Source: Ruminococcus flavefaciens
GTDB taxonomy: Bacteria > Bacillota > Clostridia > Oscillospirales > Ruminococcaceae
Length of the DNA stretch: 64,000 bases
Assembly (NCBI GenBank): GCA_023667045.1
Contig: JAMPAU010000001.1
Location: 569,803 to 633,802, forward strand
Direction of reading: 5' to 3'
The notes beneath the pieces were generated by a model that made no database searches, was not told where the DNA came from, and worked only from the letters and a program-made list of their open reading frames with translations. Shown one piece after another: positions 6,061 to 24,712 of this stretch (position 1 is its first letter; the number at the start of each line of letters is the position of its first letter). A program made the translations under genes and the position numbers.

Positions 6061-6634
6061 TTATTTTGAGTTTATGAAACTGTTTATTCCGGCGAATATT
6101 GTAAAAGCTACTTTTTGCTGATATTCTTCATCTGTAAGTAGAGAGGCTTCTTCCGGATTGGAAAGAAAACCGCACTCTACCATTACAGTGGGGTTTTTGC
6201 TGTAATAGCACAGAAAAAGCTCCTTACCGCACTGCTTTATTTCACGCTTGTTATCGGGTTGCAGAAATTCCACGAATCTGTTTTGTATTGCACGTGCCAG
6301 ATTTTCGTTACGGCGGTTGCTTTCGGAATAGAACATCTGAGCTCCGCTGTATCGTGGGTCTGTAAACTGGTTCTGGTGGATAGATATGCAGATAGCGTTA
6401 TCATACTTATTGAAAAGTTCAAGCCTGTTGTCCATGTCGGAACTTTTCTGATTGGCGATACCCTCAACGCCTTTGTCATGTATTGAAATATCCGTATCTC
6501 TTGTCACTTCAACCTGATAGCCGGAAACTGTCAGCAAGTCCCTGAGGGTGAGCAGGATATTCAGATTTATGCCCTTTTCGGCTGTGCCGTCTACAGCTAC
6601 ACAACCGCCGTCGAAACCGCCATGTGCCGAATCG
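6061..6634 (-). pseudogene. cwlD: CwlD-like N-acetylmuramoyl-L-alanine amidase, C-terminal part (split gene)
   Basis: The frame runs without a stop from the core at 6628-6634 (SAHGGFDGGC...) to TAA at 6061. It contains EKGINL (zinc-ligand Glu), the SIHQN motif (zinc-ligand His) and the terminal VECGFLSNPEE of Amidase_3/CwlD enzymes. The first zinc ligand, in DAGH, and the start codon are missing. They lie at 24474-24659, on the far side of the polysaccharide island. Upstream in frame there are stops within the att arm, so as it stands this is a silent 3' fragment. Joined to the N-terminal part it gives about 248 residues, close to the size of B. subtilis CwlD, which makes muramic-delta-lactam in spore cortex. 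Confidence 0.9.
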
Positions 6635-6660
6635 TCTTAAACTTAGTCATTGATTCTTTT
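6609..6660. other. left attachment junction of the island
   Basis: Host side CCATGTGC, core CGAATCG (6628-6634), island arm TCTTAAACTTAGTCATTGA. The island arm TCGTCTTAAA is the exact reverse complement of the arm at the other junction. Beyond it the two arms still share TAGT and further scattered bases, as expected for the two half-sites of a serine-integrase attP. Confidence 0.75.
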
Positions 6661-6904
6661 TTCAGACCAGCTTAACTTACTTATTTAATATACTCGCCGT
6701 AAGTCATTCTATGGTTAAATCCGATACCATTTTGTTTGTGTGTGGCGAATAAGAAAAAATAATAATTAAAAATATTTCTGTTTATAATATATGTGATGAA
6801 AGTGTTAATATACACAACATATATTATGAGTACAAAATCCGAATTATAATATTCATGTAGGTCTTGTTAAGAAATGCTATTAGTTACTTCTTTTGGATTA
6901 GCTA
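6642..6904. other. AT-rich island-end intergenic region
   Basis: No supportable gene. It contains an exact 11-base inverted repeat, ATAATATATGT (6784-6794) and ACATATATTAT (6817-6827), with a 22-base gap, upstream of the operon promoter. This could be a regulator site or only AT-rich palindromic sequence. Confidence 0.5.
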
Positions 6905-6933
6905 TTGACAAATGCATAAAGATATGATATACT
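6905..6933 (+). promoter_or_regulatory. promoter of the polysaccharide operon
   Basis: TTGACA (6905-6910), 17-base spacer, TATACT (6928-6933), followed about 60 bases later by the flippase start. Confidence 0.8.
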
Positions 6934-6994
6934 CATAATAGTTATATTAAATAAAGTTAAATGTATTGAATTTATAAGGAGGTATATTTGGCAA

Positions 6995-8527
6995 GTGAAG
7001 ATAGAAAGAACTAAAAACGCTAAAAGAAATATTGTATGGGGTATGATTGAAAAAATTACTGTTCTGTTACTTCCATTTATTTGCAGAACGGTTATAATTG
7101 AAATCCTTGGAGCAGAATATATTGGTCTGAACAGTTTATTTACATCTATTCTTTCTGTTCTCAGTATTTCAGAGCTCGGATTTGGTTCAGCAATTGTATT
7201 TTCTATGTATAAGCCGATAGCTGAAGGGGATAATGATACCGTCTGTGCATTGATGAATGTATACAAAAAAATATATCAAGTTATCGGAACAATAATTCTT
7301 GTTGTAGGGTTATGTATTATTCCTTTTCTTTCAAAGTTGATAAAGGGTGATGTTCCGTCAGATGTGAATTTATATGTTCTGTATGGTGTTCATCTTTTTG
7401 ATACAGTAGTGGGTTATTATCTGTTTGCGTATAAGGCGGCTATTTTTTCTGCTTATCAGAGAAATGACCTTATAAGCAAAAGAAGCACATTTGTCAGTTT
7501 GATAGGTAATATTCTTAAAATAATTGGTCTGGTTGTTTTCAGAACATATTACGCTTTTGTTCTTGTATTGCCTTTTATTACAATATTCACAAATCTTGCA
7601 AATGCAATGCTTGCAAAGAAAATGTTCCCTAAAATCGTCTGCAAAGGTAAAATTTCCAATGAAATGAAAGACGGAATAAAAAAGCGAATGGTGGGGCTTA
7701 TTTCTTTTAAAATATACAATGTAATATTTACTTCTGTAGATACTATTATAATTTCATCTTATTTAGGACTGACCCCGTTGGCAATATACAATAATTATTA
7801 TTATATACAGACTTCAATTGTGTCATTTATGACAATATTTACAGCATCAATAACTGCCGGTATCGGAAATAAAATGATAACTAATTCTATAGAAGATAAC
7901 TACAGCGACTTTAAAAATTTTACTTTTGCTAATGGCTGGATTTGCAGTTGGTGTGCAGTCTGTCTTGTATGTTTATATCAGCCATTTATGAAAGTATGGG
8001 TCGGAGAAAGTCTTCTGTTTCCATTAAGTACAATGATTCTTATGGTTTTTTATTTTTTCCTTCCAAGACTTACAACAATGACATATACTTACAGAGAAGC
8101 AGCAGGTTTGTGGTGGGAGGACAGATTCAGACCTCTTGTGGCTACTGCTGTCAATCTGATTACAAATATTATTCTTGTAAAATTTATAGGGATTAACGGC
8201 GTAATTATTTCTACATTGATATGTACAATATTTATTAATGTTCCATGGGGTTCAATTATATTGTTTAAAAATTATTTCAAAATATCAATTGCTGAATATT
8301 TCGGACAGCTTATTTATTATACAGTCATTACTTCAATTGTAGGCGGTATTTCTTTTGGTATCTGCTATTTTATAAAGATTGATGGTTTAATTGGTCTTGG
8401 AGTAAAGGCGGTTGTATGTCTGATAGTTCCGAATATTCTTTTTTGGCTGTTTTATAAAAATAAAAAGGAATTTGATTATACACGCAGGTTATTCGTTGGT
8501 ATATTAAGTAAATTCAGAAAGGTATAA
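6995..8527 (+). CDS. polysaccharide flippase (Wzx-like, MVF/MATE superfamily)
   Basis: A 510-residue integral membrane protein with about 12 to 14 membrane helices and no signal peptide. The N-terminus (KNAKRNIVWGMIEK, then PFICRTVIIEILGAEYIGLNSLF) is the typical start of Firmicute repeat-unit flippases that move undecaprenyl-diphosphate oligosaccharides across the membrane. The start is GTG at 6995, eleven bases after AAGGAGG (6977-6983); the nearby TTG is in another frame. It is the first gene of the operon, directly abutting the MenD-like gene. Its presence with a polymerase-like gene downstream suggests a Wzx/Wzy-dependent polymer. Confidence 0.9.
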   Translation: MKIERTKNAKRNIVWGMIEKITVLLLPFICRTVIIEILGAEYIGLNSLFTSILSVLSISELGFGSAIVFSMYKPIAEGDNDTVCALMNVYKKIYQVIGTIILVVGLCIIPFLSKLIKGDVPSDVNLYVLYGVHLFDTVVGYYLFAYKAAIFSAYQRNDLISKRSTFVSLIGNILKIIGLVVFRTYYAFVLVLPFITIFTNLANAMLAKKMFPKIVCKGKISNEMKDGIKKRMVGLISFKIYNVIFTSVDTIIISSYLGLTPLAIYNNYYYIQTSIVSFMTIFTASITAGIGNKMITNSIEDNYSDFKNFTFANGWICSWCAVCLVCLYQPFMKVWVGESLLFPLSTMILMVFYFFLPRLTTMTYTYREAAGLWWEDRFRPLVATAVNLITNIILVKFIGINGVIISTLICTIFINVPWGSIILFKNYFKISIAEYFGQLIYYTVITSIVGGISFGICYFIKIDGLIGLGVKAVVCLIVPNILFWLFYKNKKEFDYTRRLFVGILSKFRKV

Positions 8528-10306
8528 GTGACTTTTATGTATAGCAGTTTAAAAAATATCCAGATTTTAGTGTCACTCTTAAAACAATATGGTATAAAGC
8601 ATATTGTTATATCTGCCGGCACTCGTCATACTCCGTTTGTATATTCAGTTGAACATGACGATTTTTTTGAAACTTATTCGGTTGTTGATGAAAGAAGTGC
8701 ATCATTTTTTGCTATCGGAATGATTGAAAAGCTAAGAGTTCCCGTTGCCGTTGTATGTACATCGGGTACGGCAGCAGCAAACTATGTTTCAGCGGCAAAC
8801 GAGGCTTTTTATCAACAGCTTCCGCTTCTTATTCTTACAGCAGACAGAAATCATTACTATATGTTTCAGCAGGAAGAACAGATGATTCCACAGGAAAATC
8901 TTTACAGTTCTGTGTGTAAAAAGGTTGTGACACTCAATCATGTAAGAGATGAAAAGGATTTTTGGTATACATCAAGAATATGCAATGAGGCGTTGCTTGA
9001 ACTTGTTCAGGGTGAAAAAGGACCTGTGCATATTAATTTTATTGTTGAAAATGATTATCCGCTGAAAAAAGGAATTGTTGATTTTAAAACCGATAAACTT
9101 CCGCCGGTTAAGAAGATTGAACGCCTGACCCTTGAAGACACTACAGCAGAATGGAGAAGATTATCTAATAAAATCAGCGGAAAGAAAATTCTTATTGTTT
9201 ACGGACAGCATGGTCTTCTTAATAAGCAGGAACAGAAAGCAATAGATGACTTTACAGAAAAATATAACTGTGTAGTATCAACAGATTTACTTTCTAACTT
9301 GAAAAATGATTATGCAGTGAAAACTTTCGTATTGAGCAGGCTTCTTTCTTCAGATGAAATATCTGAACTCTGTCCGGATTTTGTTTTTACTGTTAATGCC
9401 AATACAATTTCAGAAATAAAGGGCAGTCTCACTCCTTTCAAATCAAGATTTGAACACTGGCATATTTCGGCTAAAGGTCAAGTTTCTGACCCGTTCAAAT
9501 GCCTTTCAAATGTTGTGCAGTGTTCACCATTCAAGTTCTTTAAAAGAATGGCTGCTCTCCGAACTGAAAACAGTAATCATGATTTCTTTGAAGACTGGAA
9601 GAATGTGTACTCAAGAATCGGCGATAACGGAAGTCTGAATGATGAAGATATACGTTATTCTTCAATGTATGCAATCCAGCAGTATATCAAGAATATTCCG
9701 TCCGGTTCGCTTCTTCATATCGCAAACAGCAACAGTGTACGCTTATCAAATTATTTTGATTTGGCTGATAATATTGAAGTATATGATAATCGTGGAACAC
9801 ATGGTATTGACGGTTCAATGTCTGCATTTATAGGACAGGCTCATCTTAAAAAAGATGGTCTTGCTTTCCTTGTTATCGGAGATTTAAGTTTCTTCTATGA
9901 TATGAATGCTTTATGGAACAGTTATGTCAGAAAAAATATCAGGATTCTTGTATGCAATAATTCTGGAGGTGCAATTTTCTATTCTTTCCCGAATACACAG
10001 AATGTACCCACTCTTGGCGACCATATCGCCGCTGTCCATGAAAACAGCGTAAGAAAATGGACAGAGGACAGAGGTTTTAAATATCTTTCTGCTTCTGATA
10101 AGTCTGAATTTGACGATGCACTGAAAGAATTGATTTCTGCTGAATCTGATTGTCCGGTTCTTCTTGAAGTTTTCACAGATAAAGAAATTGATGCAGACTG
10201 TATCAGAACTATCTTAACTCCATACAGGCAGGTTACATTAAAACAGAAAATATCCGACAAAATTCCTCAGAGTGTAAAAAAAGCCATAAAAGGCGTTTTA
10301 AAGTAA
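8528..10306 (+). CDS. MenD-like thiamine-diphosphate enzyme in a polysaccharide operon
   Basis: The 592-residue product follows MenD (SEPHCHC synthase) from end to end. It has VVDERSASFFAIG (the ThDP-activating Glu, residues ~56-68), CTSGTAAANY (~78), LTADRN (~97), NRGTHGIDG (~419) and GDLSFFYDMN with NNSGGAIF (~455-485) for ThDP-Mg binding. MenD adds a ThDP-bound succinic semialdehyde unit from 2-oxoglutarate to isochorismate. No other menaquinone gene is here and the surroundings are sugar-polymer genes, so I infer a repurposed carboligase or decarboxylase making an unusual building block. The tail (IPQSVKKAIKGVLK) is a basic amphipathic helix absent from ordinary MenD. GTG at 8528 or ATG at 8537 could be the start. 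Confidence 0.85.
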   Translation: MTFMYSSLKNIQILVSLLKQYGIKHIVISAGTRHTPFVYSVEHDDFFETYSVVDERSASFFAIGMIEKLRVPVAVVCTSGTAAANYVSAANEAFYQQLPLLILTADRNHYYMFQQEEQMIPQENLYSSVCKKVVTLNHVRDEKDFWYTSRICNEALLELVQGEKGPVHINFIVENDYPLKKGIVDFKTDKLPPVKKIERLTLEDTTAEWRRLSNKISGKKILIVYGQHGLLNKQEQKAIDDFTEKYNCVVSTDLLSNLKNDYAVKTFVLSRLLSSDEISELCPDFVFTVNANTISEIKGSLTPFKSRFEHWHISAKGQVSDPFKCLSNVVQCSPFKFFKRMAALRTENSNHDFFEDWKNVYSRIGDNGSLNDEDIRYSSMYAIQQYIKNIPSGSLLHIANSNSVRLSNYFDLADNIEVYDNRGTHGIDGSMSAFIGQAHLKKDGLAFLVIGDLSFFYDMNALWNSYVRKNIRILVCNNSGGAIFYSFPNTQNVPTLGDHIAAVHENSVRKWTEDRGFKYLSASDKSEFDDALKELISAESDCPVLLEVFTDKEIDADCIRTILTPYRQVTLKQKISDKIPQSVKKAIKGVLK

Positions 10307-10337
10307 GTACTTTTTATTGTTTGTGAAAGGAATAATA

Positions 10338-11222
10338 ATGGTAAAGAAAGTTTTAAAAAAAATCATTCCGAAAAAAGTCAAGGAATATGTAAAAAAACAG
10401 GTCGGTGCAAATTCATATTCACCGCAATCAGTTGAATATGTTGTCCGCAGGTCTGACGAAAAGAAAATGGATAAAAAATGTATAATAATTACCGGCGGTA
10501 CAGGTGCTATTGGTTCTGCTGTCGTTCACAGACTTTATCTTGAAGGTGCAACAATAGGTGTGTGCGGAAGAAATATAGATAAAGTAAATGAACTTATTAA
10601 AAGAATAAAAAAAGAATCAAGCGGTGGCGTTTTGATTCCATTAAAACTTGACGTATCTGACGATAAAAATATTGAAACTGCAATTGATTCTTTCGTAAAA
10701 AAAACCGGCAGACTTGACGCATTTATAAATAATGCCGGAGGTGGTGCAAGAAGTGACAGCAAGCCGATACATGAACAGTCTATAGAGATTATTGATATGG
10801 TTCTGAATACCAATCTGAGAGGCACTATTGTGTGTTCAAGAAAAGCTGCTCAGATAATGGTAAAGCAGAATTATGGAAAAATAATCAATATGTCATCTGT
10901 AGTTGGTATGCAGGGCAAATCCACAATGTCGGATTATGCAGCCTCAAAATCGGGAATTATCGGATTTACAAAGTCACTGGCACTTGAACTGGGAAAATAT
11001 AATATTTCTGTTAACTGTGTTTCACCGGGCATGGTAAATCAGATTCCATTTGACAAAGGAATGCCTGTAAAATCATCTTCTAAAAACGTTCTCGGCAGAT
11101 TCGGATATACAGATGAGGTCGCAGCTATGATTTCATATATTCTTTCAGATGAAGCTGATTATGTAACAGGTCAGAACCTTGTTATTGACGGTGGACGTTC
11201 ACTCGGTCTTATGGGAGACTAA
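10338..11222 (+). CDS. short-chain dehydrogenase/reductase with basic amphipathic N-terminus
   Basis: A 294-residue SDR with the NAD(P) motif TGGTGAIG (about residue 48), NNAG (~131), a catalytic Tyr-x-x-x-Lys in YAASK (~198-202) and a GGRSLG end typical of FabG-like enzymes. About 40 residues precede the Rossmann fold. They begin with a strongly basic amphipathic helix (VKKVLKKIIPKKVKEYVKKQ), similar in style to the tail of the MenD-like protein just upstream. I place the start at ATG 10338 behind GAAAGGA rather than at an upstream TTG. It probably reduces the product of the MenD-like enzyme. Confidence 0.85.
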   Translation: MVKKVLKKIIPKKVKEYVKKQVGANSYSPQSVEYVVRRSDEKKMDKKCIIITGGTGAIGSAVVHRLYLEGATIGVCGRNIDKVNELIKRIKKESSGGVLIPLKLDVSDDKNIETAIDSFVKKTGRLDAFINNAGGGARSDSKPIHEQSIEIIDMVLNTNLRGTIVCSRKAAQIMVKQNYGKIINMSSVVGMQGKSTMSDYAASKSGIIGFTKSLALELGKYNISVNCVSPGMVNQIPFDKGMPVKSSSKNVLGRFGYTDEVAAMISYILSDEADYVTGQNLVIDGGRSLGLMGD

Positions 11223-11277
11223 AGGATATTTAGGCAAAATTTAACGGAAAAGCCGATTTTTATTTATATTATGGGTA

Positions 11278-11306
11278 TTGACAAACAGGTGCTAAAGTGG
11301 TATAAT
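11278..11306 (+). promoter_or_regulatory. internal promoter before rmlA
   Basis: TTGACA (11278-11283), 17-base spacer, TATAAT (11301-11306) in the 130-base gap between the SDR and rmlA. The rhamnose genes can therefore be expressed apart from the first three genes. Confidence 0.85.
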
Positions 11307-11352
11307 CTTAATGGTTATACATATTTTATTTAAGTAATTTATTGGAGGTTTT

Positions 11353-12240
11353 ATGAAAGGAATAATTCTTGCCGGCGGTTCAGGCACAAGACTTTATCCG
11401 CTAACAATGGTAACATCAAAACAGCTTTTGCCTGTCTATGACAAACCGATGATATACTATCCTTTGTCAACGCTTATGCTGGCAGGAATTAGGGATATTT
11501 TAATAATCTCAACGCCGACAGACCTTCCGAACTTTGAGAGACTTCTCGGAGACGGTTCACAGTACGGAATAAACCTCAGTTATAAAATACAGCCGTCACC
11601 GGACGGACTGGCACAGGCTTTTATACTGGGCGAGGAATTTATAGGAAATGAAGCCTGTGCAATGGTTTTAGGTGATAATATTTTCTATGGAAACGGTTTC
11701 GGAACGATTCTACGTGAAGCAAAGAAAAACGCTGAAAAAAATTCAAGGGCAACTGTATTCGGATATTATGTTTCAGACCCTGAACGTTTCGGAGTGGTTG
11801 AATTTGATGAAAAAGGTCATGCACTTTCCATTGCAGAAAAGCCAAGTCAACCAAAAAGCAATTATGCTGTAACGGGACTTTATTTTTATCCTGCCGGTGT
11901 AAGTGCGAAAGCAAATCAAGTTAAGCCGTCCACAAGAGGCGAGCTTGAAATAACTACACTCAATGAAATGTATCTTAATGATAATTTGTTGGACGTTCAG
12001 CTTCTCGGACGTGGTTTTGCATGGCTTGATACCGGCACAATGGACAGTCTTATTGATGCTTCAAATTTCGTTCAGATGGTTCAGAGCCGTCAAGGAATAG
12101 AAATTTCTGCACCAGAAGAAATTGCATTTATAAATAAATGGATAATAAAAGAAAAACTTCTTGAATCTGCCGAAAGATACGGAAAATCACCATATGGCGA
12201 ACATCTCAAGGCAGTTGTGGAAGGCAAAGTGAAATATTAA
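11353..12240 (+). CDS. rmlA: glucose-1-phosphate thymidylyltransferase RmlA
   Basis: At 295 residues it matches RmlA. The nucleotide-binding GGSGTRLYP (residues 8-16) is followed by [17 protein letters not shown] (~23-39), GDNIFYG (~109) and RGFAWLDTG (~222). It converts glucose-1-phosphate and dTTP to dTDP-glucose, the first step to dTDP-L-rhamnose. It starts a tight rmlA-rmlB-rmlD-rmlC block with its own promoter and a GGAGG site. The four genes look slightly more GC-rich than the rest of the island. Confidence 0.97.
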
Positions 12241-12254
12241 GGAGATTATTTGCT

Positions 12255-13283
12255 ATGACAATTATTGTAACCGGAGGAGCAGGATTTATCGGCTCAAACT
12301 TTGTATTCCATATGCTTAATGCGTATCCCAACTACAGAATAATATGCCTTGATAAGCTGACATATGCGGGAAATCTTTCAACGCTTGCTCCTGTAATGGA
12401 TAACAAAAATTTCCGTTTTGTAAAGCTTGATATATGCGACAGAGAGGGCGTTTACAGACTTTTTGAGGAGGAAAATCCCGATATCATCGTGAATTTTGCG
12501 GCTGAGTCTCATGTTGACCGTTCAATTGAAAATCCAGAAATTTTTTTGCAGACCAATATTTTAGGAACACAGGTTCTCATGGACGCTTGCCGAAAGTACG
12601 GTATACAGCGGTATCATCAAGTATCGACAGACGAGGTTTACGGCGATTTACCGCTTGACAGACCCGATTTGTTTTTTACTGAGGAAACGCCGATTCATAC
12701 AAGCAGTCCGTACAGTTCGTCAAAGGCAAGTGCCGATTTGCTTGTAATGGCTTACCACAGGACATACGGGCTTCCCGTGACTATTTCAAGATGTTCAAAT
12801 AACTACGGACCTTATCATTTCCCCGAAAAACTGATTCCTCTCATGATTGCCAACGCTCTTGCGGACAAACCGCTTCCCGTTTATGGTAAGGGTCTTAATG
12901 TCCGTGACTGGCTTTACGTTGAGGACCATTGCCGTGCTATTGACCTTATTATTCATAAGGGCAGAGTGGGTGAAGTTTACAATGTCGGCGGACACAACGA
13001 AATGAAAAATATCGATATTGTAAAGCTCATCTGCAAGGAACTTGGAAAACCCGAAAGTCTTATAACTCATGTCGAGGATAGAAAAGGTCATGATATGCGT
13101 TATGCAATTGACCCGACCAAAATTCACGAAGAACTCGGCTGGCTTCCGGAAACGAAGTTCGCAGACGGTATCAAAAAAACAATCAATTGGTATCTTGAAA
13201 ACAGAGAGTGGTGGGAGACCATTATTTCGGGCGAGTATCAGAATTATTATGAGAAAATGTACGGAAATCGTGCAGAGGTGTGA
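12255..13283 (+). CDS. rmlB: dTDP-glucose 4,6-dehydratase RmlB
   Basis: A 342-residue extended SDR with GGAGFIGSNF (residues 6-15), the RmlB signature STDEVYGDL (~121-129), YSSSKASADLLV with catalytic Tyr/Lys (~151), and RCSNNYGPYHFPEKLIP. It converts dTDP-glucose to dTDP-4-keto-6-deoxyglucose. A GGAGAT site lies nine bases before the ATG, 14 bases after rmlA. The stop codon overlaps the start region of rmlD. Confidence 0.97.
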   Translation: MTIIVTGGAGFIGSNFVFHMLNAYPNYRIICLDKLTYAGNLSTLAPVMDNKNFRFVKLDICDREGVYRLFEEENPDIIVNFAAESHVDRSIENPEIFLQTNILGTQVLMDACRKYGIQRYHQVSTDEVYGDLPLDRPDLFFTEETPIHTSSPYSSSKASADLLVMAYHRTYGLPVTISRCSNNYGPYHFPEKLIPLMIANALADKPLPVYGKGLNVRDWLYVEDHCRAIDLIIHKGRVGEVYNVGGHNEMKNIDIVKLICKELGKPESLITHVEDRKGHDMRYAIDPTKIHEELGWLPETKFADGIKKTINWYLENREWWETIISGEYQNYYEKMYGNRAEV

Positions 13284-13285
13284 TT

Positions 13286-14170: not shown

Positions 14171-14175
14171 TACTG

Positions 14176-14781: not shown

Positions 14782-14804
14782 CAGATAGGGAATAGATTGA
14801 TATT

Positions 14805-16037: not shown

Positions 16038-16054
16038 AACAGAAAAGAGGGTTT

Positions 16055-17215: not shown

Positions 17216-17261
17216 GAATTTTTGTTTTCTTTTATAAAGAAAGCGGAAGGCAGGTTGAATT

Positions 17262-18098: not shown

Positions 18099-18154
18099 TT
18101 TAATTTATAATATTTTGTTTGTTCGTAAATGCTTTCACAGAAAGGTGAATTGAG

Positions 18155-19156
18155 ATGTATAATGTTGACTCAAAAATAAGTATTATTATAGCAGTATATA
18201 ATACGCCTTTGAAATATCTGAATGAATGTTTCCAATCTGTTAAAAATCAGACATACAAAAATATTGAAGTGATAATTATTGATGACGGTTCTGAAAAGGC
18301 TGTTTCTGATTTTTGTGAAAATTTCTGGGCAGATGAAAAAGAAATTGATGTTAGGATTATTCATAATGAAAATCACGGTGTTTCCTATTCAAGAAATTGC
18401 GGACTTGAAAAGGCGACGGGAGATTATATCTTGTTTCTTGACAGCGATGACATGATAGCTGAAGATTATATAAGTCTTATGTTAGAGGCAATAAATCATC
18501 TGAAATGCAAAGTCGTTGTTTGTGATTATTCAACAGAAGAATTAGGCAGTTCAGCCGACAAACAAAAAACGGATAAAATTTCGGTTCTTTATAGAGGAAA
18601 AAATATCTGGGCTAATCTAAATACTTCATATATATGGAGAACGCTTTACTCATCTGATATTTTAAAAGATATAAGATTTAATGTCAAACTTAAATGCAGT
18701 GAAGACATTGTCTTTTTTGATAAAGTAATAAAGAAAACGAATTGTATAGGTTACCTGCCTCTTAAGCTATATTATTACAGACAAACTCCGACAAGCATAA
18801 CACATAGCTTTTCAGTTGAGGTCTGCAAAGATGCGATAAAAACATATGAGAAAGTGTATCTATCAAATGAAGCGGTCATAAATAACAAAAAGGTCTATTC
18901 AGAGATTTTTACAAGCTATTCAAGGTGGATTGTCAGATATATCAGTGTGGTAAGTACAAGCGGGAGTTTTTCTAAATTCACATCTGCAAGAAATTTCTGT
19001 TTGAAGAGAACCAAAGGACGTATAAATTTAATCAATAGTAAAAATGTAAAAGCAATGGTTTGCTTGGCAAGAATGCCTTCTTTTGTATTTTACATCTGTA
19101 TAAGAGCATATGATTTTCTGAGAAAAATCAAAAATAATAAAAGGAGAGGAAAATGA
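18155..19156 (+). CDS. family 2 glycosyltransferase
   Basis: A 333-residue GT-A enzyme with SIIIAVYNTPLKYLNECF (residues ~9-26), VKNQTYKNIEVIIIDDGS (UDP-binding Asp) and the metal-binding FLDSDD near residue 94. A basic hydrophobic C-terminus may anchor it to the membrane. It overlaps the next gene by four bases (ATGA), showing translational coupling. Donor and acceptor cannot be predicted. Confidence 0.9.
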   Translation: MYNVDSKISIIIAVYNTPLKYLNECFQSVKNQTYKNIEVIIIDDGSEKAVSDFCENFWADEKEIDVRIIHNENHGVSYSRNCGLEKATGDYILFLDSDDMIAEDYISLMLEAINHLKCKVVVCDYSTEELGSSADKQKTDKISVLYRGKNIWANLNTSYIWRTLYSSDILKDIRFNVKLKCSEDIVFFDKVIKKTNCIGYLPLKLYYYRQTPTSITHSFSVEVCKDAIKTYEKVYLSNEAVINNKKVYSEIFTSYSRWIVRYISVVSTSGSFSKFTSARNFCLKRTKGRINLINSKNVKAMVCLARMPSFVFYICIRAYDFLRKIKNNKRRGK

Positions 19157-20361
19157 GTATTAAATTTAAAGGAATAAACGAAATGATATTTATATTTTTT
19201 TGGTTTATTTTTTCTTTTTCATATATTATTAATGCATCTCTTTTAGGCTCTTTATCCGTATTCAAAATGATGTATAAACTCGAAGTAGTAGCTTTTGGTG
19301 GAGTTCTTGCCTTACTTTTTTTAGTTCACAGCAGGATAAAGTTAAAAAAAATAATTTTAGCAAGTATGTTTTTGGTTAGTTGTCTTATTATTGCAAAAGT
19401 GACAGGTAAAATAGTATATATGGTTTTTATATTGTTTGTAGCCAATTCTGAATGCACATCATTTAAAAGAATAATAAAAACAACAATTATATCTGTCACA
19501 CTGGCAACGTTATTGGTTATAGTATCATGTAAATTGGGATTTATTCCTGATTATATCTTTATAAGAGAGGAAGGATTGCAGGCACATTCTCTTGGCTTTA
19601 CTTACTATTATACAGTCTCGACATATGCTATGTTTGTTTCAATATTATATATTTATTATAAGAAAAATGTCAGTTGGATTGAGCTTTCAGCAATTGTATT
19701 GTTATCATATGCAATATATAAGACTTGTACAACAAGACTTCCTTTTGTGATTTTGCTTCTTGCATTGTGTCTTTATGTTCTGCTCAATAAGTTTGATATT
19801 ATAAAAAATATTAATTGTAAAATAATAAGAATATATTCATTGGTTGCTTTTCCTATAGCCTGTATCACCTGTGTTGTAGCGGCGGTATTGTATAATCCAT
19901 CTAATCCGGTATTTTATAAACTGAATGAAATTCTGAATCACAGATTAAGTCTGTCTCATGCTGCGTTTGCAAGATATAGCGTTAAATTGTTTGGGCAGTA
20001 CGTTGAAATGCAGGGCAACACATATGGCAAGGTGCAGACAAATTATTTTTTTATAGATTCGGGATATATTCTCAGTGTTGTGGAATATGGTATTGTGGCA
20101 ACCGTCATACTGTTGGCGTTATATAGCTTTATTTATTACTATTCATGCAAAACCAACAATAAAAGGCTGTTTGTTTGGATTACTATGGTATTGATTTTTA
20201 ATGTTGTAAATGGCTGTTGGTTTGCATTTGTATATAATCCTGTATTTTTTGTATTGATGCATATGGATAAGTACTCTATTACTGAATTGTTGAGTAGTAT
20301 TATGCGTAATAAAGAGGTCGATAAGGTGATTAAAAAACTAAATATAGCGGAGGAGATATGA
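19153..20361 (+). CDS. polysaccharide polymerase-like (Wzy) membrane protein
   Basis: A 402-residue very hydrophobic protein with about ten membrane helices and one longer external loop (about residues 250-300, with HRLSLSHAAFARYSVKLFGQ and YFFIDSGY). That pattern is typical of Wzy/O-antigen polymerase-like proteins, which share little sequence. It lies between two GT2 genes and overlaps both by four bases (ATGA junctions). Assignment rests on topology and context. Confidence 0.75.
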   Translation: MSIKFKGINEMIFIFFWFIFSFSYIINASLLGSLSVFKMMYKLEVVAFGGVLALLFLVHSRIKLKKIILASMFLVSCLIIAKVTGKIVYMVFILFVANSECTSFKRIIKTTIISVTLATLLVIVSCKLGFIPDYIFIREEGLQAHSLGFTYYYTVSTYAMFVSILYIYYKKNVSWIELSAIVLLSYAIYKTCTTRLPFVILLLALCLYVLLNKFDIIKNINCKIIRIYSLVAFPIACITCVVAAVLYNPSNPVFYKLNEILNHRLSLSHAAFARYSVKLFGQYVEMQGNTYGKVQTNYFFIDSGYILSVVEYGIVATVILLALYSFIYYYSCKTNNKRLFVWITMVLIFNVVNGCWFAFVYNPVFFVLMHMDKYSITELLSSIMRNKEVDKVIKKLNIAEEI

Positions 20362-21347
20362 ATAGGAAAATTTCAATAATTATGCCTGTTTATAATGCTG
20401 AGAAAACATTAAAACGCAGTGTAGAATCTGTCTTGAATCAGACGTATAAAAATATTGAGTTGATTCTTGTGAATGACGGCTCAACCGATGAATCCGGAAA
20501 AATATGTCTTGAATATCAGAAAAAAGACAGCAGGATAAAATATCTGTATCAAAAAAACTCGGGTGTGTCATCAGCAAGAAATAAAGGAATCAAATTGGCT
20601 TCTAGTGAGTTTATAGCCTTTCTTGACGCAGATGATTACCTTGATTGTGAGTTTTGCAGAAAAATGCTTAATAGTCTTAACTCTGAAAAATCTGATATGT
20701 GTATATGTATGAACTATAATGTCAGACAGTATCTTAATTCTGACGGTGTAATAGAGGAAAAAATTGAAACTCCTGAGCATAAGCCACGAAATAAAATCAG
20801 CATTAAATCGGAAGAATACGATTTTTATGATAATTGCAGTCACTGGACTGTATGGGGAGTATTATTCAGAAAGAAACTTATGGATAATGTGCGTTTTAAA
20901 AAAGGATTATTTGTAGGAGAAGATACATACTTTCTTGCAGAGATTATAAAAAAAGCTCGGAGAATAACTTTTCTTGATGAATGTCTGGTTTATTATATAT
21001 TGGGGATTGAATCAGCTTCACATGGTGGTTTCAATTCTAAAAAAATCACAGAAATTTCCAGTTGGAAGAAAATAATTGAACTTTACAAGGACAGAAAAGA
21101 GCAGGTAAAAAATATTAAAGCTGGATATGCCAAAAGATGTATTAAACTGATAAAAACATACTATGTTGAAGACGACAACTTTAAGAAAAATTACTATAAA
21201 AAGATTATTTCAGAATATAGAAAAAATGCTGTGTATGCTTTTAGAGAAGATATAAAAAAGCGTGACTATATCTATTTGATAAAACATATTTCTGGTTTTA
21301 TTGTTCCTGAAATTATGTTCAGATTAGAATATATGAAAAACAATTAG
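20358..21347 (+). CDS. family 2 glycosyltransferase
   Basis: A 329-residue GT-A enzyme with SIIMPVYNAEKTLKRSVES, LNQTYKNIELILVNDGSTDES and metal-binding FLDADD near residue 93. It is coupled to the polymerase gene by an ATGA overlap. It is related to, but clearly different from, the GT2 at 18155, so the repeat unit probably needs at least three sugar transfers counting the DUF1972 enzyme. Confidence 0.9.
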   Translation: MNRKISIIMPVYNAEKTLKRSVESVLNQTYKNIELILVNDGSTDESGKICLEYQKKDSRIKYLYQKNSGVSSARNKGIKLASSEFIAFLDADDYLDCEFCRKMLNSLNSEKSDMCICMNYNVRQYLNSDGVIEEKIETPEHKPRNKISIKSEEYDFYDNCSHWTVWGVLFRKKLMDNVRFKKGLFVGEDTYFLAEIIKKARRITFLDECLVYYILGIESASHGGFNSKKITEISSWKKIIELYKDRKEQVKNIKAGYAKRCIKLIKTYYVEDDNFKKNYYKKIISEYRKNAVYAFREDIKKRDYIYLIKHISGFIVPEIMFRLEYMKNN

Positions 21348-21359
21348 AAAGGTGTTTTT

Positions 21360-22466
21360 GTGAATATGAAAGCATTGATTGTGACAATAAATGACGGAAA
21401 AAATTATAATTTTGGTAATAAACTTCAAAATTTAGCTGTGAGTGAAGTGCTGAAAAAGTTTAATGTGGAGTCAGAAACTCTTAATTTTGAAATGCCGTTT
21501 ACTTCTGAGGTTAAAAGAAAAATAAAAAAAACATTAATGAAACTGACAAATTATAAACTTGCACGGTCAGCTGAAAGTAAGTTTTATTGGAAATATGGAA
21601 TGAAAAGAATTGAAAATTTCCAGAAATTTGACAGGAAATATTTAAAACAGCATAATGATTTTACGCTTACAAAATCTTCCGGATATGACTATTATATAAT
21701 TGGTTCTGACCAGGTATGGAATCCAGAGTTTTTTAAATATCATAAAATGAAAAAATATGCCTATATGCTTTCTTTTTGTGATAATAATAAAAAGATATGT
21801 TTTTCTCCAAGTTTTGGCGTGTCTGAGATTCCGCCGGAATGGAAAAAATGGTTTAAAAAATATCTTTCAGCTATTCCGCATATTTCAGTAAGAGAGGATG
21901 ACGGTGCAAAGATAGTAAAAGAACTTACTGGAAAAGAAGCAGATGTGCTTATTGACCCTACTCTGATGCTTAGTGCGAAGGAATGGAAAAAATATTCTAA
22001 AAAACCAGTTGGTATTGATTTCTCTGAAAAATATATTCTTACGTATTTTTTAGGAGAAGTTTCTGATGAGAAAAAAATATATATAAATAATCTTGCAAAA
22101 ATGAAAAATCTGAAAGTATATAATTTACTTGACAAGGAAAATCCAGAACTTTATACGATAGGCGTATCAGAATTTATATTTTTAATTTCACATTCCGATA
22201 TGGTAGTAACAGATTCTTTTCATGCGTGTGTGTTTTCTTTTATTTTTAACAGACCATTTGTTGTATTCAATAGAAAAAGTGATTATTCAGATATGTCATC
22301 AAGGCTTGATACCTTGCTTTTAAAGTTATCCCTTACAGACAGAAAAGCTAAATCCCTTGAAGACAGTGACCTTTTTGAAGCGAATTATAAAAAGGGAAAA
22401 GTGGCTTTAGCAAAAGAACGGAAGAAAGTAATGATGTATTTGTCCAAAGCCATGAATATAAAATAA
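21360..22466 (+). CDS. polysaccharide pyruvyl transferase family protein
   Basis: A 368-residue protein with the PF04230 pattern: NFGNKLQNLAV near the N-terminus, DYYIIGSDQVWNP (~107-119), FSPSFGVSEIP, SVREDDGAKIV, DVLIDPTLML and VVTDSFHACVFSFIFNRPFVVF (~292-313). These enzymes add pyruvate ketals from phosphoenolpyruvate to exopolysaccharide sugars, giving the polymer negative charge. It is the last gene of the operon. GTG 21360 sits eight bases from AGAAAGG; ATG 21366 is the alternative. Confidence 0.88.
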   Translation: MNMKALIVTINDGKNYNFGNKLQNLAVSEVLKKFNVESETLNFEMPFTSEVKRKIKKTLMKLTNYKLARSAESKFYWKYGMKRIENFQKFDRKYLKQHNDFTLTKSSGYDYYIIGSDQVWNPEFFKYHKMKKYAYMLSFCDNNKKICFSPSFGVSEIPPEWKKWFKKYLSAIPHISVREDDGAKIVKELTGKEADVLIDPTLMLSAKEWKKYSKKPVGIDFSEKYILTYFLGEVSDEKKIYINNLAKMKNLKVYNLLDKENPELYTIGVSEFIFLISHSDMVVTDSFHACVFSFIFNRPFVVFNRKSDYSDMSSRLDTLLLKLSLTDRKAKSLEDSDLFEANYKKGKVALAKERKKVMMYLSKAMNIK

Positions 22467-22494
22467 AATCGTGGTTTTTAAATATGAAAAATGT

Positions 22495-22534
22495 TTCTGA
22501 AAGACCTGTTTATCAGTCTTTCAGAATTTTTTTT
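22495..22534 (+). terminator. terminator of the polysaccharide operon
   Basis: TTCTGAAAGAC and GTCTTTCAGAA form an 11-bp perfect stem with a 10-base loop, followed by eight T. A single strong terminator closes the 15-kb operon. Confidence 0.95.
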
Positions 22535-22688
22535 GCTGTCTATGGTATATTTAAATAAAGCGGTGGTTTGATTTGAATGTTTTATTACGAAAAAAGTATT
22601 TGTGGATAAGTTCTACATTAAACCAGAATGTTAAAGATGAAACGAAAATTAGGAATTGTAAAAAATAACAGCAGACTCAGACCTGCCA

Positions 22689-24260
22689 TTACAATTTCCA
22701 GTGAATATTAATAGCACGTCTACTGTTTTCCAGTACCTCGTCAACTTCAATAAAGTCAATAAATTCTTCAACGATACTGCGGTCAAGGGCTGTGAAGTGC
22801 GTGTACTTTTCTATGACAGCACACTGATTTTCGGCATTTTCTTGATGTGTACGACGCTTGTCAATATGATTTTCGATTTCAGCAAGCCTTTGAATGATAT
22901 TCTGCTCATCGGCGGACAGATTTTCACGGAATGCCCTGTAATCTGCTTCCGATATAATGCCGTCAAGTTTATCCTTGTACATCATTGTAAGGCGATTTCG
23001 GGCGGTCTGCAATTGTTCTTCAAGGTTATTTCGCTGATATTCCAGAGCCTGTAACTGCTCATGACATATATCATCAATTACAATTTCGTCCGTCTGACAA
23101 TAATGCTCAATAATGTTATTCAGTTCGTCAAGAACTTTCTGCTCCAGCACTTTACCGCTCATTGTTTTGATATTTGTACAGTTCATTGCTCCGGTTTTGT
23201 ATGTAGCACACTGCATACCATAATACTTGATAGTCTTAGCCTTGTTATAGTAGATGTTTCGCTTCATCGGGCGACCGCATACCGCACATTTCACCTTGCC
23301 CGACAATGCAGAAACTTCATTTGTCACACGGCTTGAACGTGTACGGCTGTTCAGGCGTTCCTGCGTGCATTCCCACATTTCACGGTCAATTATGGCTTCG
23401 TGCGTGTCCGGAATACGCACCCATTCGCTTTTGTTTACTTTTTTACGCTTTTTGTTTTTATAGCTGATGTGGTGAGATTTTCCCTGTACAAGCGTACCCG
23501 TGTACATTTCATTTCTAAGTATAACAGAAATTGTTGACTGAGTCCATAAACCGTTAGAGCTACTACTGTTGGCATTGCAGTTGACATATTTTGAGCCTGT
23601 CTGTTTTTTGTAAGCGGAGGGACTGGGAATATTTCTGTTATTGAGTTTCTGTGCAATTTTCCGATAGCCGTTTCCATTTACGAACATATCAAAAATCAGT
23701 CTCACATTATCAGCCGTGTTTTTGTCAATAATCAGTCTGTGCTTGTCTTCGGGGTCGATAAGATAACCGTAAGGTGCGAAAGAGCCTATAAACTGCCCCT
23801 GTTCACGCTTGAATGTGAGAGTACGCTTGATTTTACTGGAAATATCTTTCACGTACATTTCATTGTACGCACTCGTAAAAAGTCTCATAGTGCTGTAAAT
23901 TTCGCTGTCCGAATCCGCATTGTCTGCAACTCCGATAAATCGGATTCCCCATTCAAGAAATTTATCGTTTATGTACTGCTCTATAACAATAATGTCTCTT
24001 GAAAATCTCGACTGGTCTTTGCACAGAACAATGTCAATATGTCCGTTTTCGCAGTCATGGAGCAGGCGTTTGAACTCAGGACGGTTGCGGTCAACACCGC
24101 TGTAGCCGTCGTCGCAGTAAATGTCATAGATTTCCCAGTTACGTTCACGGCAATAGTCAAGGAGCATAGATTTCTGATTTTGTATACTCTGACTGTCATC
24201 GGTTTTTAGTTTGTTCCTGTCCTCAATCGACAGACGGCAGTAAATTCCTGCTTTCGCCAT
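22689..24260 (-). CDS. large serine recombinase
   Basis: A 523-residue enzyme. The catalytic resolvase domain (1-~150) starts AGIYCRLSIED with Ser11 as the likely nucleophile and has DDGYSGVDRNRPEF and KDQSRFSRD. The recombinase domain spans about 160-290 (PFAPYGY-like SFAPYGYLID, NGNGYRKIAQKLNNRNIPSP). A zinc ribbon (CAVCGRPMKR...MNCTN, ~305-345) and a coiled-coil follow (~370-450). It starts behind AGGAGGTTCAGCTT. It lies near the right end of the island on the same strand as the split amidase, so it is the obvious candidate for integrating and excising the island. Confidence 0.95.
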   Translation of the reverse strand: MAKAGIYCRLSIEDRNKLKTDDSQSIQNQKSMLLDYCRERNWEIYDIYCDDGYSGVDRNRPEFKRLLHDCENGHIDIVLCKDQSRFSRDIIVIEQYINDKFLEWGIRFIGVADNADSDSEIYSTMRLFTSAYNEMYVKDISSKIKRTLTFKREQGQFIGSFAPYGYLIDPEDKHRLIIDKNTADNVRLIFDMFVNGNGYRKIAQKLNNRNIPSPSAYKKQTGSKYVNCNANSSSSNGLWTQSTISVILRNEMYTGTLVQGKSHHISYKNKKRKKVNKSEWVRIPDTHEAIIDREMWECTQERLNSRTRSSRVTNEVSALSGKVKCAVCGRPMKRNIYYNKAKTIKYYGMQCATYKTGAMNCTNIKTMSGKVLEQKVLDELNNIIEHYCQTDEIVIDDICHEQLQALEYQRNNLEEQLQTARNRLTMMYKDKLDGIISEADYRAFRENLSADEQNIIQRLAEIENHIDKRRTHQENAENQCAVIEKYTHFTALDRSIVEEFIDFIEVDEVLENSRRAINIHWKL

Positions 24261-24294
24261 AAGCTGAACCTCCTTTCTTTAAAATTTTTGATAA

Positions 24295-24414
24295 TCAGCA
24301 AATATTTTTAAGATGTCTGTTGAGCAGTTTCTTAATTTTCTGAGTGACAGCTTTTTTTAACGCTTCGGGGTCTGTGTTTTTGAATATGTTCGTTGTATGT
24401 ATGCTGTTTTTCAT
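24295..24414 (-). CDS. 39-aa small protein upstream of the recombinase
   Basis: This ORF starts behind GAAAGGAG and encodes a very basic, helical peptide beginning MKNSIHTTNIFKNTDPEAL and ending KKLLNRHLKNIC. It lies between the att junction and the recombinase, which starts 34 bases after its stop, and both are on the same strand. Short ORFs of this type commonly precede recombinase genes in Firmicute integrative elements. A role in DNA binding or recombination directionality is possible but unproven. Confidence 0.6.
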   Translation of the reverse strand: MKNSIHTTNIFKNTDPEALKKAVTQKIKKLLNRHLKNIC

Positions 24415-24454
24415 AATATCGCTCCTTTCATTGCATAGAAACGGTGTAAAGCTT

Positions 24455-24505
24455 ATGTTTTTAGTAACTATATTTAAGACGATTCGCTGTGACCTGCGTC
24501 AAGAA
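24455..24505. other. right attachment junction of the island
   Basis: Island arm AGTAACTATATTTAAGA, core CGATTCG (24480-24486), host side CTGTGACCTGCGTC, which encodes the DAGHS of the amidase on the minus strand. The arm-plus-core TTTAAGACGATTC (24473-24485) is the reverse complement of GAATCGTCTTAAA at 6629-6641. Confidence 0.75.
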
Positions 24506-24659
24506 TAATAATTGGCTTTTCTTCGTCATATGACATAAGCGAAACAGGCAGTGAATCCTTATCAGACTTACTGCTTATATGAGATAGTGCAGTAAGCCCG
24601 AAAACTGCACAGCCGAAAACCAATGCTCCGCTTATAATTCTGCGTGTTATTTTGTTCAT
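24474..24659 (-). pseudogene. cwlD: CwlD-like amidase, N-terminal part (split gene)
   Basis: This 61-codon ORF has its own AGGAGG site. It encodes a basic N-terminus with one hydrophobic helix (residues ~8-26, a signal anchor), a linker, and then PIIILDAGH, the first zinc-ligand motif of Amidase_3. It then runs off into the island arm and meets TAA within three codons. The rest of the enzyme is at 6061-6634, 17.8 kb away. The fragment alone cannot be catalytic. Restored by excision, it would be a membrane-anchored or exported cortex-type amidase. Confidence 0.9.
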
Positions 24660-24680: not shown

Positions 24681-24712
24681 TAAGCATATGCAGAATTACC
24701 GACTGCTATTCC
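24681..24712 (-). promoter_or_regulatory. weak sigma-G/F-like promoter candidate for the amidase
   Basis: On the minus strand GGAATA (24707-24712) and CATATGCTT are 16 bases apart. This loosely resembles forespore promoters (GNATA / CATNNTA), though the spacer is short. No sigma-A promoter is obvious for this gene. This is a low-confidence suggestion that matters only because of the split-gene hypothesis. Confidence 0.2.

Follow-up and report, generated by a model that had tools for sequence, protein, structure and literature searches.

A recombinase-bearing element splits a CwlD-like amidase gene at a single codon in Ruminococcus genomes

Introduction

Why should the gene for a sporulation amidase lie in two pieces on either side of a surface-polymer operon? 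In the stretch of Ruminococcus flavefaciens DNA analyzed here (64,000 nucleotides, called the window below), the two parts of a CwlD-like amidase gene are both on the minus strand, the N-terminal part ending in DAGHSESS and a stop codon, and between them lie a glycan operon on the plus strand and a gene for a large serine recombinase on the minus strand. In this arrangement, open reading frames and Pfam matches bear out the original prediction, which held further that loss of the intervening DNA would restore the amidase and that polymer production and amidase activity were alternating states of one locus. We consider it likely that the intervening DNA represents a new family of non-viral elements that interrupt sporulation genes, comparable to skin and gin, and that would be excised in the mother cell by the recombinase and a small protein.

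The split gene and its boundaries

The splitting of the CwlD-like gene by an element is confirmed. The N-terminal part shares 86% identity over 57 amino acids with an intact relative, and in the inserted state a stop codon stands just behind DAGH; the C-terminal part reads DSAHGGFDGG and continues until the stop at 6061 (Table 1). Scanned against NCBIfam, the C-terminal part (6061-6627) matched TIGR02883 (spore_cwlD) with 188.7 bits, under the cut-off of 221.55, and TIGR02883 was the top family for all three intact relatives scanned (200.4, 197.3, and 201.1 bits). The amidase is named CwlD-like because these scores of the intact relatives fall below the equivalog cut-off. The closest solved sequence for one intact amidase was the germination-specific amidase 7rag (2.8e-37).

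When the window flanks were compared by blastn with nine intact relatives, similarity on the left stopped at 6624 in seven of the nine and similarity on the right resumed at 24490 in five, the homology ends in the remaining relatives deviating by 5 to 33 bases. The crossover core is the CA of the codon for the catalytic zinc-ligand histidine (between DAGH and GG), present at 6623-6624 and 24490-24491. Joined in silico at CA, the two parts give a protein of 243 amino acids, gap-free and 87 to 91% identical to five intact relatives; the attL by attR join restores the frame exactly. The expectation that loss of the element would restore the amidase frame was therefore upheld, but the protein is shorter than the roughly 248 codons proposed, and the proposed join at CGANTCG had to be rejected as the crossover. 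That motif sits in two inverted arms, and joining there leaves DAGHSESAHGG, whereas the relatives read DAGHGG, so that agreement of the restored protein with its relatives holds by way of CA and is spoiled by extra residues by way of CGANTCG.

The element ends, taken together, form a palindromic attP with CA at its center. An attP was reconstituted in 19 of the 21 pairs tried, 11 of these 19 being assembled from separate contigs, and a mean of 14.2 of 18 arm positions paired (range, 9 to 17; 4.5 expected for random bases). The pattern missed G039 and L114, whose N-terminal fragments end in DAGQ because the third codon base (CAA) comes from the element; their C-terminal sides start with CAT and CAC, and a CA crossover gives histidine there too.

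The flanks carry neighbors of the intact gene. The phosphofructokinase-like gene adjoins intact cwlD in five of nine relatives, as well as the N-terminal part in the split genomes G038 and G055; it was not found within 1.3 kb of cwlD in L009, L012, and L013, and L006 was too short.

Table 1. Features of the split locus (positions in the window)
Feature	Position	Strand	Basis
249-aa protein, 3' neighbor of cwlD	5174..5923	-	3' of cwlD in 9/9 intact relatives
cwlD-like 3' part, His codon CAT to stop	6061..6624	-	Amidase_3 PF01520 3.6e-37 (scanned as 6061-6627)
attL: element arm TTTAAGACGATTCG + 3' cwlD half-site; core CA 6623-6624	6610..6645	-	sequence; arm pairing
Whole intervening element, 17,867 bp (one of two CA cores counted)	6625..24491	.	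homology breaks, CA join
Polysaccharide flippase (presumably Wzx type)	6995..8527	+	PF01943 5.7e-07
Thiamine-pyrophosphate enzyme	8528..10306	+	PF02776, PF02775
Short-chain dehydrogenase	10317..11222	+	PF13561
Four dTDP-rhamnose-type genes (which we take to be rmlA, rmlB, rmlD, rmlC)	11353..14781	+	ORFs; RmlD, epimerase, nucleotidyltransferase families in cargo tally
DUF1972 protein (presumably a glycosyltransferase)	14805..16037	+	PF09314 1.3e-75
Dehydrogenase fused to cytidylyltransferase-like domain	16034..17215	+	PF00106, PF01467
LicD-family transferase	17262..18098	+	PF04991 2.2e-48
Putative GT2 glycosyltransferase, Wzy-like membrane protein, second GT2	18155..21347	+	ORFs; GT2 in cargo tally; assignment inferred from sequence
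Polysaccharide pyruvyl transferase	21360..22466	+	PF04230 1.9e-32
Large serine recombinase, 523 aa (Resolvase, Recombinase, Zn ribbon, DUF4368)	22689..24260	-	Pfam
39-aa ORF, candidate recombination directionality factor	24295..24414	-	directly upstream of recombinase
Weak counterpart of sigma-E-like motif before small ORF: ATA-N16-TATGCAAT; outside counted pattern	24430..24456	-	sequence
attR: 5' cwlD half-site + element arm CGAATCGTCTTAAA; core CA 24490-24491	24474..24507	-	sequence; arm pairing
cwlD-like 5' part (N-terminus to DAGH, then SESS + stop)	24474..24659	-	sequence, ORFs
Sigma-E-like motif of cwlD: ATA-N16-CATATGCT	24683..24709	-	motif scan (L143)
Presumed 6-phosphofructokinase-like gene, flank, divergent from cwlD	24792..26009	+	neighbor comparison

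Recombinase, small open reading frame, and promoter

A related recombinase (at least 65% identity) was present in 22 of 28 split genomes but in only one of the 53 intact ones (Fisher p 2e-13); six split genomes contain no assembled recombinase of this family. A small open reading frame of 37 to 48 amino acids stood upstream of the recombinase in all 48 loci that show the recombinase N terminus, among 53 examined. This family matched nothing in Pfam, and its median dN/dS was 0.18 over 49 pairs (all with at least 60% identity and a dS within 0.1-2.5). We regard it as a candidate recombination directionality factor, and together with the recombinase it looks like a single operon behind one promoter.

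A sigma-E-like motif was found upstream of the small open reading frame in 32 of 44 loci, versus 17 of 670 control open reading frames and 1.75 for shuffled small-ORF upstreams; at a fixed place it occurred in 31 of the 44, versus 1 of the 670. The relaxed pattern was defined after looking at the sequences, and the strict sigma-E consensus fits only 6 of the 44 upstreams. The full promoter pattern is missing in 12 of the 44 loci, the window copy among them. Upstream of intact cwlD the motif was present in 42 of 54 cases, and upstream of split N-terminal fragments in only 9 of 26. In Clostridioides difficile, cwlD has been reported to be under sigma-E control, with ATA as the sigma-E -35 element (PMC3789822). 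Upstreams of spoIVA, taken as a positive control, had the motif in 0 of 20 cases, an outcome that we judge uninformative because several spoIVA genes closely follow an upstream open reading frame. The outcome nonetheless tells against easy confirmation of the motif.

In the sporulation-linked model, the recombinase would recognize the DNA encoding DAGHGG of the CwlD-like amidase and exchange strands at the CA in the codon for the zinc-ligand histidine, insertion thereby splitting the gene, and rejoining of attL with attR would give the scarless 243-aa amidase. The small upstream protein may act as the directionality factor, made together with the recombinase from the sigma-E-type promoter. A promoter of that type would place both proteins in the mother cell, which is also the site of cwlD transcription, so that precise excision in that compartment during sporulation is probable; since the mother cell dies, the forespore would retain the element and its cargo.

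Occurrence and conservation across the genus

Among 100 genomes surveyed, 86 had a match to the C-terminal part and 14 had none. The 81 classified Ruminococcus genomes, one per species, comprised 28 split and 53 intact, and every split was at the same codon, a recurrence that sets the break apart from a chance event; the uninterrupted gene, looked for in relatives of the window's strain, is thus common. Five genomes were left unclassified: G006, G019, and G022 have open frames of 254, 253, and 244 and are probably intact, and G058 and G060 are partial.

Alternatively, selfish insertions might simply inactivate cwlD, the lineage losing normal cortex modification or sporulation and each split being a short-lived dead end. 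The distribution of the splits agrees with that explanation, for they lie at the tips of the tree, as costly insertions would, with 22 changes for 28 splits and no clustering relative to shuffles; and to our knowledge R. flavefaciens is not usually called a spore-former. The state of the split genes argues otherwise. The reading frame of the C-terminal part is open to its end in 28 of 28 split genomes, and its median dN/dS was 0.053 for split-split pairs (21 pairs), compared with 0.065 for both split-intact (125) and intact-intact (128) pairs, all with at least 78% amino acid identity and a dS within 0.05-2.5. N-terminal parts were located in 20 of 27 split genomes searched (the split genome G037 was left out), and 19 of the 20 keep a start codon and a ribosome-site-like word. 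The recombinase operon, moreover, often has the sporulation-type promoter motif.

These figures have limits of their own. Since the splits are scattered on the tree, the insertions may be recent and the low dN/dS may have arisen before they occurred, which weakens the case for long maintenance of the split under selection. Spare N-terminal fragments, found alongside an intact gene in the same genome, have lost the 5' end or the frame in only 2 of 11 cases (YL228 and G023), so that they form a weak contrast to the kept N-terminal parts of split genomes.

Sporulation markers weigh in the same direction as the open frames. In a sample of 60 genomes, SpoIVA was matched in 59 and Spo0A was above cut-off in 59, and all 14 split genomes in the sample had SpoIVA above cut-off. 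Two other families discriminated poorly: PdaA-like matches were under cut-off in 30 of 30 genomes, and the PdaA family also matched 10 of 14 control genomes, while sigma-E was above cut-off in only 8 of 30 genomes, its family likewise matching 10 of 14 controls. On this evidence we think it unlikely that the splits are dead ends.

Cargo and movement of the elements

The cargo differs from element to element and includes glycan operons, cellulosomal proteins, and transporters; several elements have no glycan operon. The G038 element holds two cargo genes, and among the proteins scanned in G081, G040, G070, and G057 are glycosidases, proteins with dockerins or leucine-rich repeats, sigma or anti-sigma factors, a permease, and a TIR protein. 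This variety rules out polymer cargo as the general purpose of the element. The partly read G031 element is larger, at 66.8 kb.

Some of the shared DNA indicates transfer of elements from one species to another: those of G047 and G081 are 97% identical over 1,197 nucleotides, while the cwlD dS between the two genomes is 1.29. The G079 and G070 elements share 1,110 nucleotides at 95% identity, which is compatible with inheritance or transfer.

Such mobility, together with the site specificity of the element and the whole glycan operon in the window copy, might suggest a vegetative switch, in which the island is reversibly lost and gained by growing cells and polymer and amidase alternate. The mutually exclusive states originally proposed fare badly, given the variable cargo, the elements that have no glycan operon, and the sporulation-type motif often found before the recombinase operon. 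An excised circle would usually be lost unless it had a replication origin, and the promoter motif, pointing to sporulation, favors one-way excision in the terminal mother cell over a vegetative switch, which we consider very improbable.

Search for viral, plasmid, and cassette relatives

Large serine recombinases typically belong to phages or to transposons of the Tn4451/Tn5397 type, and the closest solved sequences to the window recombinase are TnpX (2mhc) and the SPbeta recombinase YokA (9dxh). A close relative of the recombinase was sought in three collections and none was found: its 770 phage and 380 plasmid matches were all below 60% identity (best listed, 35.5% and 37.7%), and a pattern scan of viral contigs confirmed no recombinase relative. 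The cargo proteins (69 in all, 14 from the window and 55 from relatives, the latter being 57 less two overlapping G030 open reading frames) matched 43 PHROG families, and no phage structural or packaging family was among the 25 listed. With no close recombinase relative in the three collections and no phage structural family among those listed, a viral or plasmid origin was rejected, and despite the TnpX match we give scarcely any credence to the idea that a degraded prophage or a conjugative element merely happened to use cwlD as attB. SPbeta, in contrast, is an active phage and is far larger than the element described here.

The top NCBIfam match of the recombinase, CcrB, scored 127.7 bits where the cut-off is 900, and identity with an SCC cassette was rejected. 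SCC elements likewise combine a large serine recombinase with diverse cargo at a single chromosomal site; their target is not split on insertion, whereas here the gene is.

Comparison with known gene-intervening elements

Insertion in a sporulation gene (here CwlD-like), a site-specific recombinase, and a frame-restoring att pair (here in silico) are features in common with skin, SPbeta, vfbin, gin, and yin. In the literature compared here, such elements are from Bacillus and Clostridium and are mostly prophage-like. One close likeness is to gin, a non-phage element that interrupts the gerE gene of Bacillus cereus ATCC10987, has variable gene content, is precisely removed to restore its target, and encodes the serine recombinase GirC and a very small accessory protein, GirX, of 42 amino acids (PMC5595907). 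According to that report, gin encodes three recombinases as well as a restriction system; here the target is cwlD, one recombinase directly follows the small open reading frame, and, unlike in gin, surface-glycan and cellulosomal genes are among the cargo.

The skin element in sigK of C. difficile also pairs a large serine recombinase with a small protein, the directionality factor CD1234 (72 amino acids), which is under sigma-E and SpoIIID; excision is restricted to the mother cell and the recombinase is expressed constitutively (PMC5025042). That element is prophage-like, and its constitutive recombinase contrasts with the arrangement here, in which the gene for the candidate directionality factor and that for the recombinase appear to share one promoter. 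In B. subtilis, SPbeta splits spsM, which is restored during sporulation by the recombinase SprA and the accessory protein SprB, whose gene has a mother-cell promoter (PMC4191935). The prophage-like yin, reported from one strain, splits the mother-cell sporulation gene yabG, and its excised circle was observed; the introduction to that report names sigK, spsM, spoVFB, and gerE among the targets of further elements, and its main text does not mention cwlD (PMC10747680).

Implications

The family described here is non-viral and occupies a single codon within the gene for a cortex-type amidase, in 28 of the 81 genomes that could be classified. A broader reading, which we offer tentatively and stop just short of calling probable, is that this active-site codon is a genus-wide integration hub, the recombinase family using a conserved catalytic motif as its attachment site. 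Since the split gene would be needed only in the terminal cell that restores it, the site would be a nearly cost-free harbor for the exchange of surface-adaptation cargo (glycan operons, dockerin-bearing enzymes, and leucine-rich-repeat proteins) among Ruminococcus species. A second form may bring its own promoter and 5' cwlD half, so that tandem arrays would terminate in an intact, chimeric gene.

The elements provide natural replicates by the dozen in which to ask why sporulation genes are chosen and whether excision in a terminal cell is what makes such a site safe. They predict that Ruminococcus species, major fiber degraders of the gut and rumen, still use a sporulation program, and they offer a compact pair of recombinase and small protein with a defined attB. 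The surface glycans and cellulosomal enzymes among their cargo suggest a route by which host- and plant-facing traits may be exchanged.

Precise interruption of cwlD at the catalytic histidine codon

In the window, the CwlD-like amidase gene (cwlD) is split by a 17,867-bp element (6625-24491). The two amidase pieces claimed in the original prediction were recovered, by sequence and ORF reading of the window, on the minus strand at the claimed positions.

Features of the split cwlD locus in the window
Feature	Position	Strand	Remark
Amidase C-part (3' piece)	stop at 6061	-	reads ...DSAHGGFDGG...; Amidase_3 match 3.6e-37
Glycan-type (mostly) gene set, fourteen genes	6995-22466	+	between amidase pieces
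Large serine recombinase, 523 aa	22689-24260	-	between amidase pieces
Small ORF, window copy	24295-24414		34 bp before recombinase
Amidase N-part (5' piece)	24659->24474	-	terminates DAGHSESS-stop

Alignment of the sequences on either side of the gap to nine intact relatives showed similarity ending at base 6624 on the left in seven of the nine and beginning at 24490 on the right in five. All nine share with the window a 249-aa gene 3' of cwlD, and five have a divergent phosphofructokinase-like gene upstream, which was not within 1.3 kb of cwlD in L009, L012, and L013 (the L006 locus was too short). Both boundaries have in common the dinucleotide CA that opens the His codon of DAGH. Joining the pieces there by script gave a 243-aa product without an internal stop, gap-free against five 243-aa relatives at 87 to 91% identity; the prediction that loss of the element would restore the frame is supported, with the join at CA.

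The proposed core, CGANTCG, is not the crossover and was ruled out, being part of two inverted 14-bp arms around CA. The closed element reads TTTAAGACGATTCG-GCACACAG-CGAATCGTCTTAAA, a palindrome centered on CA. Rebuilt in 19 genomes (both sides on one contig in 8), this closed-element site, attP, pairs at a mean of 14.2 of 18 arm positions (range, 9 to 17), with 4.5 expected for random bases. In the two of 21 pairs that the script missed (L114 and G039), the N-fragment has DAGQ, its third codon base being the element's, and the C-sides supply CAC (L114) and CAT (G039), as predicted by crossover at CA. Such a crossover in the His codon of DAGH makes the uninterrupted target site, attB, the DNA encoding the catalytic motif itself.

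Recurrence and evolution of the split

Among 100 genomes (the window's genome and 99 others of its genus), a C-part was present in 86, of which 81 could be classified. The uninterrupted amidase anticipated in relatives was found in 53 of these; the other 28 were split, every one at the same codon, and a search of 27 split genomes located the N-part in 20. A recombinase of 65% identity or more occurred in 24 of the 100 genomes (next best match, 40%): 22 split genomes, G009, which had no amidase match, and G062, which has an intact cwlD plus extra N-fragments. Among classified genomes, it thus accompanies 22 of 28 split genes versus 1 of 53 intact ones. Where a single contig held both ends, element lengths were 3.8, 7.0 (L114, recombinase 51% identical), 11.9, 12.7, 15.1, 17.9, 20.6, and 22.6 kb, and 66.8 kb in G031.

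The main rival explanation is that a selfish element inactivates cwlD and nothing more. Reading frames, however, are kept: all 28 split C-parts are open through to the end, and 19 of 20 N-parts retain a start codon and a ribosome-site-like word. Median dN/dS of the C-part was 0.053 in comparisons of two split genes (21 pairs), 0.065 when a split gene was set against an intact one (125 pairs), and 0.065 in comparisons of two intact genes (128 pairs). What the rival has in its favor is the scatter of split states on the tree of 81 C-parts, where 22 changes of state (19 forced by well-supported branches; shuffled mean, 23.4) point to frequent gain and loss of the element; given this scatter, selection on C-parts may partly predate insertion. 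The elements of G047 and G081 are 97% identical over 1,197 nt despite a cwlD dS of 1.29, which, from sequence comparison, indicates that an element has recently moved between species. In 20 split genomes, distances between recombinases correlated weakly with those between cwlD genes (Mantel r, 0.31; 0 of 2,000 permutations as high).

Small ORF, recombinase, and cargo

An ORF of 37 to 48 aa lies directly upstream of the recombinase in all 48 loci showing the recombinase N-terminus (53 loci surveyed; 44 found by script, with L072, L113, L114, and L116 seen in addition). Its median dN/dS of 0.18 (49 pairs, all <1) reveals coding constraint, and a Pfam search returned no family. We propose it as a candidate directionality factor. 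It is similar in size to GirX (42 aa) of the gin element, which excerpts of PMC5595907 describe as needed for gin excision.

Cargo differs between elements: glycan-type genes in the window, G030, and G088; two genes in G038; two leucine-rich-repeat dockerin proteins in G081; a GH9 cellulase with dockerin in G040; GH127 and a dockerin protease in G070; and a permease, RsgI-like and sigma factors, and a TIR protein in G057. The last (L049:10694-14206; 1,170 aa; Thoeris ThsB-like similarity, 3.6e-7) is possibly a defense gene. Dockerin was the most frequent Pfam family, in 6 of 69 cargo proteins (drawn from eight elements plus an array unit). No phage structural family was among the matches listed for these 69 proteins (25 of 43 PHROG families). 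All recombinase matches to phage records (770; best among the matches listed, 35.5%) and plasmid records (380; best among the matches listed, 37.7%) were below 60% identity, and a pattern scan of viral contigs confirmed no relative.

The window ORF at 16034-17215 fuses a short-chain dehydrogenase to a cytidylyltransferase-like domain; with an adjoining LicD gene and a nearby thiamine-pyrophosphate enzyme gene, it perhaps serves an unusual activated-sugar or polyol route. In L093, L071, L112, L117, L179 (G080), and L044 (G039), the recombinase points the opposite way from the amidase pieces, and its place within the element varies among loci including these; the elements look modular.

Arrays and extra fragments

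Extra 5' cwlD fragments with the attR arm (an element end) accompany an intact gene in G034, G062 (MA2007), G067, YL228, G087, G007, and G023. In G034, fragment and gene lie ~6.3 kb apart, separated by cargo; in G067, three fragments precede the gene; in G087 and G007, the fragment is at some distance from the gene. We read the tandem cases as units each ending in its own promoter and 5' half, the last cwlD copy thus being whole. At the extra-fragment loci (L218 [G034:C1:1820000-1837000], L241 [G067:C73], L087, L171, L213, L210, L211, and L245), the fragments, most of which include the promoter region, are found upstream of an intact cwlD or close to the ends of contigs, with intervening cargo units.

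In G034, whose genome has three contigs, a lone fragment with an attR arm near 197306-197479 of L242 (G034:C1:190000-204000) lies 1.63 Mb from the locus and is oriented oppositely. Its N-part is similar to one in G067, and the fragment is a possible trace of inversion or a second integration. YL228 contig G100:C13 (189,937 bp) has 5' fragments near both ends, and its start and end match neighboring genes belonging to a single G034 unit, which would fit a self-closing contig or a unit present twice. In L066 (G098:C20:56500-65701), intact cwlD is followed ~7.7 kb downstream, at the contig end, by another C-part bearing an attL-like arm.

Sporulation genes and a sigma-E-like promoter motif

Of 60 genus genomes, 59 had SpoIVA (58 over the cut-off, including all 14 split genomes in the sample), as did, among 14 named controls, B. 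subtilis only; Spo0A exceeded the cut-off in 59 of the 60 and in a single control. This retention of SpoIVA counts against simple inactivation by a selfish element. The sigma-E (30 of 30 genus genomes, 8 over the cut-off) and PdaA (30 of 30, none over) families each also matched 10 of 14 controls and carry little information on sporulation. For the three intact amidases scanned, the best NCBIfam family was spore_cwlD TIGR02883 at ~200 bits, below its cut-off of 221.55, and the best solved sequence for one was the germination-specific amidase 7rag (2.8e-37).

According to PMC3789822, sigma-E controls cwlD in C. difficile and has ATA as its -35 element there. The pattern ATA-N15-17-[CG]ATAnnHT, relaxed post hoc after sequence inspection, preceded the small ORF in 32 of 44 loci (shuffled mean, 1.75; maximum, 6) versus 17 of 670 further ORFs from those loci, and occupied a fixed place (-51 to -44) before 31 of 44 small ORFs versus 1 of 670 others. 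It also preceded intact cwlD in 42 of 54 distinct upstreams but N-fragments in only 9 of 26. A strict consensus matched 6 of 44 small-ORF upstreams versus 0.045 shuffled. The pattern was unmatched upstream of the window's own small ORF and in all 20 spoIVA upstreams. This sporulation-type motif, too, speaks against the selfish-element explanation. Often, a GGTCAAG-like word immediately precedes the motif; we take it to resemble a SpoIIID site, and if it is one, it would match skin of C. difficile.

Proposed mechanism and novelty

The observed split with its exact boundaries, attachment-site architecture, and recurrence, the recombinase association, the conserved small ORF, and the promoter motif form the setting for a proposed mechanism. 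The small ORF product would act as directionality factor and, with the recombinase, would be expressed in the mother cell, where excision would restore CwlD while the forespore retained the element. The same logic underlies the skin and gin elements (PMC5025042, PMC5595907, and PMC4191935). The original prediction's vegetative switch between polymer and amidase found no support in this analysis and is superfluous.

Literature on interrupted sporulation genes, on cwlD with recombinase, excision, or prophage, and on Ruminococcus serine recombinases or intervening elements, mostly screened short of the full texts, turned up no paper describing an insertion in cwlD. The yin paper (PMC10747680) names sigK, spsM, spoVFB, and gerE as targets and itself adds yabG. 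We therefore take cwlD as a new target. Intervening elements are themselves known; what we regard as new here is cwlD as the target of a nonviral, genus-wide element with surface-trait cargo and arrays.
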